Shown here: in pieces, positions 60,525-62,640 of the stretch
Numbering within the stretch: the first letter of the stretch is position 1
How the letters are laid out: each line of letters opens with the position of its first letter
Assembly: GCA_903884105.1 (NCBI GenBank)
Contig: CAISDJ010000008.1
Coordinates: 1-64,000 of the forward strand
From: an uncultured Pseudomonadota bacterium
GTDB lineage: Bacteria > Pseudomonadota > Gammaproteobacteria > Steroidobacterales > Steroidobacteraceae
Reading direction: 5' to 3'
Length of the DNA stretch: 64,000 nt
Notes under the pieces: generated by a model
Databases searched by the model: none
Seen by the model: the letters and a program-made list of their open reading frames with translations, nothing else
What the model was told of the DNA's origin: nothing
Position numbers and translations under genes: made by a program

Positions 60525-61277
60525 ATGGAACTGATTCCTGCGATCGATTTAAAAGACGGTAAGTGCGTGCGCCTGTTTCAGGGCGACTTCGCCGCGCAGA
60601 CGGTGTACGCGGAGAACCCCGAGATCATTCTCGATCAGTATGTATCCCTGGGCGCAACCCGGATCCATGTCGTCGATCTCGACGGCGCCAGGGATGGCGC
60701 CCTCGCGAACCGGACAGCCATTCTGAAACTCGCAAAGCGCAAGGGTGTGAAGCTGCAGGTCGGCGGCGGATTGCGAACCATTGAGCGCGTACGTCATTTG
60801 CTGGACGCCGGCATCGAGCGCGCTGTCATCGGCAGCATGGCTGCGACAACGCCAGGCGTCGTCACGCGCTGGTTTGAGGCGCTGGGTCCGGATCGGCTGG
60901 TATTGGCCTTTGACGTCCGCATGGACGCAGCGAACACTCCGCGACTGACCACCCATGGCTGGACCGAACAGTCGCAGACAACGCTATGGGACGCAGTCGA
61001 AACTTTCCTGCCCTCCGGACTCACGCACGTGCTGTGTACCGACATCTCGCGTGATGGTGCACTCACGGGCCCCAATACCGACCTCTACAAGGAAGCGGTC
61101 AAGCGCTTCCCCCAGATAAAGTGGCAGGCTTCCGGCGGCGTCGCCAATGCTGCCGACCTGCATGCCCTGCGCGATTGCGGTGCCGCTGCCGCCATCAGCG
61201 GCAAGGCCCTGCTGGAAAACCGCATCAGCCTCGAGGAGCTCAAGCCATTCTTGCCAAACGCATCATCCCCTGCCTAG
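60525..61277 (+). CDS. hisA: ProFAR isomerase HisA
   Basis: A (beta/alpha)8 barrel of 250 residues. Catalytic aspartates are D8 ([13 protein letters not shown]) and the one in LAFDVRMD near 129; the phosphate sites QVGGGLRT and ASGGV are intact. AAGGAG lies 8 bases before ATG 60525. The 37-base gap after hisH is the largest within the his enzymes. The 3' end overlaps hisF by 31 bases. Confidence 0.97.
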
Positions 61278-62014
61278 ACGTAAGGGACGGACAGGTCGTC
61301 AAGGGCATCCGCTTCCGCGACCATCGTGTCGTGGGAGACATCCTCGAGCTTGCGGCACGCTATCGTGAAGAGGGCGCGGATGAACTCGTATTCTATGACA
61401 TCACTGCGAGCCCCGATGGACGCTCCGTGGATCGCAGCTGGGTGCGACGCGTTGCGCGCCTGCTCGACATTCCGTTCTGCGTTGCCGGAGGCATCCGCAG
61501 CGTCGCCGATGCGGAGGCTGTACTGGCCGAAGGTGCCGAGAAAATCTCGGTCAATTCGCCTGCCCTCGCGGACCCGGATCTCATCGATCGCCTGAGCGGG
61601 CGCTTCGGCGCGCAGTGCGTAGTCGTCGGTATCGACAGCCAGACGGCCGACGGTGAGTTCCTTGTCTACCAGTTCACCGGTGATCCGACCCGCACGCGCA
61701 ACACCGCACGCCGGACGATCGACTGGGTGCAGGAAGTACAGCAGCGCGGCGCAGGGGAAATCGTGCTGAACTGCATGGCGAGCGATGGCGTCCGGCATGG
61801 CTACGACCTGCCGCAGCTCAAGGCAGTTCGTGCCGTCTGCAGCGTTCCGCTGATCGCTTCAGGGGGTGCAGGCGCTCCCGAGCATTTCGCCGACGTATTC
61901 AACCAGGCCGCCGTGGACGGCGCGCTGGCCGCCAGCGTCTTCCATTCCGGAAACATTGCCATTCCGGATCTCAAGCGCTACCTGCGCGACGCCCATATCG
62001 AGGTCAGACCATGA
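61247..62014 (+). CDS. hisF: Imidazole glycerol phosphate synthase, cyclase subunit (apparent ATT start)
   Basis: A (beta/alpha)8 barrel partner of HisH, 255 residues. With translation from ATT 61247 the protein begins (M)[14 protein letters not shown] exactly like other HisF proteins, and catalytic residues fall at D11 and D130, the family's standard numbering. GAGGAG (61233-61238) lies 8 bases before the ATT, an ideal distance. No ATG, GTG or TTG exists nearby; the next options upstream are TTG 61175 and GTG 61121, which would add 24 or 42 Arg/Cys-rich residues read from inside hisA. It overlaps hisA by 31 bases and hisIE by 4. Confidence 0.93.
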
Positions 62015-62640
62015 CGAGAGAGCAGTTCGGCCAACTTGAATGGAGCAAGGGCGATGGCCTATTGCCCGTCGTCGTTCAGCACGTACGCACGGGACAGGTG
62101 CTGATGATGGCGTTCATGAACGAGGCTGCGCTCAACGCCACTCAGTCACTGGGACAAGTGACGTTCTACAGCCGGAGCAAGCAGCGCTTGTGGACCAAGG
62201 GCGAAACCTCGGGAAACTTCCTGAAGTTCATCGACGCCGCGGCAGATTGCGACAACGATGCGATCCTGATCCTGGCAGAACCCGTCGGGCCCACTTGCCA
62301 TACCGGAACCAACAGCTGCTTCGGCGACGACACAACCACGCTTGCGCAGCGACTGGCGTTCCTCGGCGAACTCGAGAACGTGATCGCAAGTCGGATCGTC
62401 GAGAAGCCGGAAGGAAGTTATACGGCCCGCATTTGGGCGCAGGGCCCGACGCGTATGGCGCAAAAGGTAGGGGAAGAAGGCGTCGAAGTTGCCCTGGCCG
62501 CCGTGACTCAGGACGACGACCGGCTCATTGGCGAGTCCGCAGACCTGCTTTATCACCTGACCCTGCTGCTCAAGAGCCGCGACTTGTCGCTCGCGCAGGT
62601 GATTACAGAGCTCGAGCAGCGCCACGCAGTCAGGCGCTGA
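62011..62640 (+). CDS. hisI: Bifunctional phosphoribosyl-AMP cyclohydrolase / phosphoribosyl-ATP pyrophosphatase
   Basis: HisIE fusion of 209 residues. The cyclohydrolase domain (1 to about 110) includes [30 protein letters not shown] and zinc cysteines in DCDNDAILI and [12 protein letters not shown]. The pyrophosphohydrolase domain (about 115-209) includes [21 protein letters not shown] and ESADLLYHL. It overlaps hisF by ATGA and closes the complete histidine operon. Confidence 0.97.

Follow-up and report, generated by a model that had tools for sequence, protein, structure and literature searches.

The data presented here indicate that hisF of this bacterium is, as judged from its own sequence and those of its relatives, translated from an ATT codon that is read as fMet, and that this ATT likely represents a near-cognate start codon held in place by the overlapping gene hisA. 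The explanation that we favor, and consider quite probable, is a dual-coding conflict: an aromatic HisA residue excludes ATG from the position where hisF begins, and a strong Shine-Dalgarno sequence (SD) lets ATT work. The gene lies in a window of 64,000 nucleotides, which is the whole stretch of DNA that was analyzed, and the source genome is a draft of 3.73 Mb in 144 contigs that is 99.29% complete. The features of the locus are collected in Table 1.

Table 1 Features of the hisA/hisF junction and its surroundings, in window coordinates
Feature	Position	Strand	Details
hisA	60525..61277	+	ATG start, 250 aa, TAG stop 61275-61277
hisF, cyclase subunit of imidazole glycerol phosphate synthase	61247..62014	+	255 aa from ATT; stop TGA 62012-62014
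hisF start codon ATT	61247..61249	+	Read from sequence, conservation and a full-length NCBIfam TIGR00735 match
Shine-Dalgarno GAGGAG	61233..61238	+	Within hisA; 8 nt between SD and ATT
hisA/hisF overlap, 31 nt	61247..61277	+	Read from sequence
TTG, nearest in-frame canonical codon upstream of ATT	61175..61177	+	24 codons up; rejected as hisF start
GTG, next in-frame canonical codon upstream	61121..61123	+	42 codons up; hisF start of the mechanical ORF finder
hisIE-like gene (name presumed from its sequence)	62011..62640	+	ATG overlaps the hisF stop as ATGA

A sequence-only reading of the window had proposed that translation from the ATT at 61247 gives the exact N-terminus of HisF together with its D11/D130 numbering, and the profile comparison bears this out. 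Specifically, residues 2-254 of the protein read from ATT align with positions 2-254 of the 254 positions of the TIGR00735 hisF profile without any offset, and the score of 333.3 bits against a cut-off of 294.55 makes this an equivalog HisF match over the full length. Counting ATT as residue 1 places Asp at 11 and at 130 (the latter counted on the alignment), the positions of the catalytic residues Asp11 and Asp130. The same reading had described GAGGAG as well placed before ATT and the surroundings as free of canonical starts; the spacing in Table 1 agrees with the former, and in agreement with the latter no in-frame ATG, GTG or TTG lies nearer upstream than the TTG listed there.

The start codon was subsequently read across relatives by locating HisF codon 4 (Lys or Arg) in each locus and taking the codon three places before it. 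A search of 150 genomes of the GTDB family gave a match in 134 and 127 loci, one per genome, of which 126 were readable; seven genomes with a match held fragments or weak matches alone and their locus was left unread, and one locus (L178) was unreadable because it is cut by a contig end. These 126 family genes start with ATT in 96 cases, ATG in 16 and ATA in 14. The rest of the order contributes 34 unique loci (ATT 29, ATA 1, GTG 2, ATG 2), and the named genome records, represented by the best 80 of 587 relatives, are dominated by ATG (57), followed by ATT (16), GTG (4), ATA (2) and ACG (1). Merging these sets gave 280 loci, from which seven (L178 and the low-scoring outgroups L235-L239 and L243) and 14 exact duplicates were removed; among the remaining 259 unique loci, which are the best-scoring search matches and sample the wider class thinly, ATT occurs 142 times, ATG 91, ATA 15, GTG 6, ACG twice, and AAT, TCC and TCG once each. 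The two ACG and the single AAT, TCC and TCG readings come from five outgroup loci and were rejected as starts, as by eye they are codons inside a longer N-terminus with an ATG 1-9 codons upstream. ATT also stands at this position in four single-contig genomes (G028, G011, G593 and G541) and in the same-genus genome G001 (locus L007), whose HisF shares 96% protein identity with that of the window and in which the first canonical codon met upstream of ATT is a GTG at a distance of 42 codons. Such conservation of ATT and ATA within the family means that neither chance nor a base error accounts for the codon.

Two further observations concern the distribution of hisF itself. No hisF match was found in 16 of the 150 family genomes, among them five (G014, G033, G023, G056 and G085) that are 94-100% complete and are possible histidine auxotrophs. 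A second protein resembling HisF, with 30-40% identity and perhaps of the HisF2/WbuZ type, is present in several relatives (for example G053:C2 and G122:C1). A distant search of a plasmid collection yielded 21 records, all with less than 80% coverage of the query and hence no close relative.

The overlap with hisA probably provides the framework for understanding this conservation. The neighboring hisA was readable in 251 of the 259 loci, and all 156 ATT or ATA genes with hisA read alongside overlap it by at least 19 nt, so that the hisF start codon also encodes HisA residues. In the window, the last two bases of ATT and the following C form the hisA Phe codon TTC, and its A occupies the wobble position of the preceding hisA codon, CCA for Pro. 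Of the 141 ATT genes, 107 overlap hisA by 19 nt, as do 13 of the 15 ATA genes; in the others the overlap is 31 to 55 nt, and the classes among ATT genes are 19, 31, 37, 52 and 55 nt. The hisA stop (window 61262-61277) is set by codon Ile6 of hisF: where this is ATA, a TAA arises in the other frame and the overlap is 19 nt, and where it is ATC, the stop comes later. The 31-nt overlap of the window is thus due to its Ile6 being ATC. The stop of hisA falls inside the start region of hisF, which is the layout of a translationally coupled pair, and coupling of hisF to hisA translation is plausible.

Where the overlap is at least 19 nt, the start codon and the HisA residue correspond completely, as ATT goes with Phe in 141/141 genes, ATA with Tyr in 15/15 and ATG or GTG with Cys in 31/31; the genetic code forces this correspondence, which for that reason carries no direction of cause. 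The choice of synonymous hisA codons is likewise distinctive, in counts that come from related rows and are not independent: among all 187 rows that overlap by 19 nt or more, taken irrespective of start codon, the third hisA position under the hisF start carries A 185 times and G twice, whereas third positions in the neighboring hisA stretch of the ATT/ATA genes are A in 8.9% of cases; the hisA codon at the start is Pro CCA in 111 of 156 ATT/ATA genes, against 16 CCA among 335 Pro codons elsewhere in the stretch; and the hisA Glu codons under the SD are GAG in 100/100 and 145/152 cases, against 231/406 elsewhere and 2/12 just outside the SD (at -17).

A dual-coding conflict would produce this arrangement in the following way. 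In this clade an aromatic HisA residue near the C-terminus sits exactly where hisF must start, and in this phase ATG or GTG would force Cys into HisA; as codon 2 of hisF begins with C or T, Trp is also unreachable for HisA with either of them. ATT gives Phe and ATA gives Tyr, so that both near-cognate starts satisfy HisA and HisF alike. Initiation at ATT would be made workable by GAGGAG at a distance of 8 nt, a weakly folded stretch and a normal-looking initiator tRNA, and ribosomes translating hisA probably assist, by unfolding the region or by reinitiation. HisA function, rather than low HisF output, probably keeps the codon in place.

The initiation context can be compared across the same genes. 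GAGGAG itself occurs in 93 of the 156 ATT/ATA genes, whose median pairing energy with the anti-SD is -8.3 kcal/mol. The corresponding medians are -4.0 kcal/mol for 21 canonical genes of the ATT clade with a short overlap or none, -10.3 kcal/mol for 31 canonical genes that are overlapped and -7.1 kcal/mol for 41 other canonical genes; as the overlapped canonical genes have the stronger SDs, the strength of the SD need not be a compensation for ATT. Of 200 shuffles of the start region in the window, 199 fold better than the native sequence. Averaged over the 156 genes, this region folds most weakly among six segments compared (-19.1 against -28.2 to -37.8 kcal/mol), with a smaller dip in 93 genes with canonical starts (-19.2 against -23.1 to -28.9 kcal/mol). 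The start segment also has the lowest GC content (0.60 against 0.62-0.74), which may explain part of the dip. A relaxed initiator tRNA, an idea that comes from PMC11497404, was set aside as the basis of ATT use, as the source genome shows no sign of it: its initiator tRNA has 92% identity to a query of the E. coli type, with the TCGGG/CCCGA anticodon stem retained.

Published measurements give a sense of what such a start can deliver. In E. coli an ATT start reaches about 0.3% of ATG (PMC10666635, citing Hecht 2017), and AUU or AUA sites of S. aureus with a strong SD are given about 10% of AUG output in poor medium (PMC13009471). In phage fr, an overlap of -38 nt supports coupling, which is put down to scanning (PMC12548453), and this makes help from ribosomes finishing hisA plausible.

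Phylogenetic comparison indicates what happens when the overlap is lost. In a FastTree tree of 249 rows with readable hisA, the ATT clade comprises 177 rows and has a support of 93, whereas one deep node of the tree has a support of 16. Within this clade, 21 rows have an overlap below 19 nt, and all of them start with a canonical codon (ATG in 20, GTG in one); ATT or ATA is found in none of these 21 rows and in none of the 33 loci with an overlap below 7 nt. The homologous HisA residue in the 21 rows is Trp in 14, Phe in three, Tyr in three and Cys in one, which makes it aromatic in all rows but one. Within the clade, hisF with a short overlap or none has a canonical start and HisA nearly always retains its aromatic residue; that residue is the likely reason for ATT. 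Outside the clade, none of 40 assignable rows with an overlap below 19 nt has Phe, Trp or Tyr at this position and 28 have Cys, which is forced where the overlap is 7 nt; as the aromatic residue is not universal there, it could also be a consequence of ATT and not its cause.

Parsimony on this tree gives one gain of ATT/ATA with a long overlap for the clade and a second in L095 and L111, two gammaproteobacterial MAGs in which ATT again accompanies HisA Phe and is apparently independent in origin. It further gives seven changes to a canonical start with a short overlap or none and one change to an overlapped GTG. A direction of cause can be read from the separated lineages alone, and these are few. 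Nine independent pairs, on the supported (starred) branches, differ in overlap; the start type differs in the same direction in three or four of them, in the opposite direction in none and not at all in the rest, and the sign test (p 0.125 to 0.25) is consistent with the trend and not significant. In one locus (L203) the overlap has changed to 7 nt and HisA has Cys. A same-genus locus, L179, has ATG and HisA Cys in a 19-nt overlap at a junction nearly identical to that of its ATT-bearing same-genus relatives L161, L162 and L180; it lies on a short contig and is missing from the changes listed for the tree. Two loci from family f176 of the order (L273 and L280), which branch at the base of the ATT clade or within it, are overlapped and start with GTG, with HisA Cys-Trp as in the enteric arrangement. 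Together with L179, they imply that canonical overlapped starts are viable, which counts against the proposed conflict.

The main rival explanation, which we regard as unlikely, holds that ATT was selected as a weak start that keeps HisF low or lets it follow free IF3, as for infC and sigR, with HisA Phe as a by-product. Near-cognate starts elsewhere are indeed regulatory, as illustrated by the GTC start of sigR, which is repressed by IF3 (PMC5472188). In addition, the canonical starts of the clade outside long overlaps have weaker SDs (-4.0 against -8.3 kcal/mol), as if initiation were being kept moderate, and among rows with an overlap below 19 nt the aromatic HisA residue is confined to the clade. 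Against a selected weak start stands the absence of ATT and ATA wherever the overlap is short or lost. Moreover, HisF works 1:1 with HisH (review PMC10138114), so that lowering HisF alone would have no obvious use.

The infC gene of the same lineage bears on this rival from both sides. It was read in the source genome (G000:C131:6768-6971, L215) and in 30 family loci (L289-L318), from a search in which 57 of 60 family genomes had a match, and it starts with ATC, ATA or ATT in all 31 genomes read (18, 9 and 4 cases, counted by eye; ATC in the source genome). In 27 of the 31, the infC frame has a stop two codons ahead of the start. The start itself follows an SD of the GGAGG type. Ribosomes of this lineage, as these starts suggest, very probably initiate on ATH codons. 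IF3 autoregulation of infC is to be expected. ATC, the commonest infC start, is absent from hisF (0 of 157 ATT/ATA genes against 18 of 31; Fisher p 3.6e-17, relatedness ignored), which fits the HisA constraint because ATC would give Ser. The two genes are thus alike in combining a near-cognate ATH start with a strong SD in a form conserved across the lineage, and differ in that infC encodes a translation factor, mostly uses ATC and varies among ATH codons, whereas hisF is metabolic and overlapped.

A more far-reaching proposal, to which we give marginally less credence than to a selected weak start, is that hisF and infC form a small class of IF3-read genes across the order: HisF output would follow the IF3-to-ribosome ratio and the translation of hisA, so that the state of the initiation machinery would bear on how much histidine and AICAR (purine) is made, and the HisA aromatic residue would lock the codon against reversion. 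Sensitivity of hisF to IF3 is possible.

An upstream canonical start is far less credible. On this account, which we consider very improbable, hisF would begin at the in-frame TTG or GTG of Table 1 with an extension of 24 or 42 residues, as the mechanical ORF does at the GTG, and 86 of the 157 ATT/ATA relatives do have some in-frame canonical codon before a stop, the nearest being 17 to 128 codons up (in one further gene the frame runs open to the contig end). In the remaining 70, however, an upstream stop closes the hisF frame with no ATG, GTG or TTG in between, at a distance of five codons in 22 of them and of two codons in two. A canonical start upstream is impossible in these genes, for which the account is already refuted, and the first canonical codon downstream comes no earlier than codon 12, beyond Asp11, in 69 of them and is codon 10 in the other. 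The sequence-only reading had named an upstream TTG/GTG extension as what could overturn ATT, and this objection fails. In the window, moreover, the alignment to the profile sets in at residue 2 of the protein read from ATT, the SD is positioned for ATT, and in the same-genus L007 TTG is not the nearest codon. Both window candidates were accordingly rejected as the hisF start.

We give still less weight to a HisA-HisF fusion made by a -1 frameshift that the SD-like GAGGAG would stimulate within the overlap: hisF does lie in the -1 frame of hisA with an SD-like element ahead of the overlap, but a scan that began some 36 nt ahead of the start and ended at the hisA stop showed no slippery heptamer (X XXY YYZ in the hisA frame) in any of 156 genes, and relatives with separated genes have an ATG of their own. 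A sequencing or assembly error that conceals a true ATG, the other objection raised by the sequence-only reading, found no support and is effectively ruled out by the comparison of the codon in sister species: 96 of 126 family genes share it, as do the four single-contig genomes.

Comparison with known systems places hisF among a few near-cognate starts. A counterpart in gene arrangement is hisA/hisF of E. coli (L110), which has the same junction and phase and the 19-nt overlap of most ATT relatives, but starts hisF with ATG and hence has Cys in HisA. The pcnB gene of E. coli reportedly starts at AUU as well, and the title of Binns and Masters (2002) is said to state that this start limits pcnB translation; it resembles hisF as an AUU-started gene other than infC, and we know of no account in which a neighbor's coding dictates the pcnB codon. 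The Staphylococcus genes cvfC1 (AUU) and ccpN (AUA) share with hisF a conserved near-cognate start and a strong SD, whereas they belong to another phylum and cvfC1 is the first gene of its operon, where the account in PMC13009471 names no overlap. For Streptomyces sigR, whose start is GTC in 32 of 34 species and GTT in two, repression by IF3 was established by experiment and the weak start serves the sigma/anti-sigma ratio; the infC product likewise represses its own synthesis (PMC5472188). The start of hisF resembles that of sigR as a conserved non-canonical codon (in sigR across the genus), and differs in that IF3 repression or a role in a ratio is hypothetical for hisF.

Among the open-licence matches listed, judged by title and abstract, nothing was found on hisF with ATT or another noncanonical start, on hisA/hisF overlap coupling or on Steroidobacter start codons, and nothing on the hisF case under overlaps with non-canonical starts or AUU starts, which does not imply absence from print.

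Taken together, these findings have consequences for annotation as well as for the biology of this lineage. Gene finders restricted to ATG, GTG and TTG will mis-start hisF. In a large clade, ATT or ATA has persisted at the start of a core metabolic gene, with seven inferred changes to canonical starts at shorter or no overlap and one same-genus ATG within the overlap (L179), and this raises the question of how a near-cognate start feeds a 1:1 enzyme complex. The case appears to be one in which the protein that a neighbor encodes fixes the start codon of a gene.
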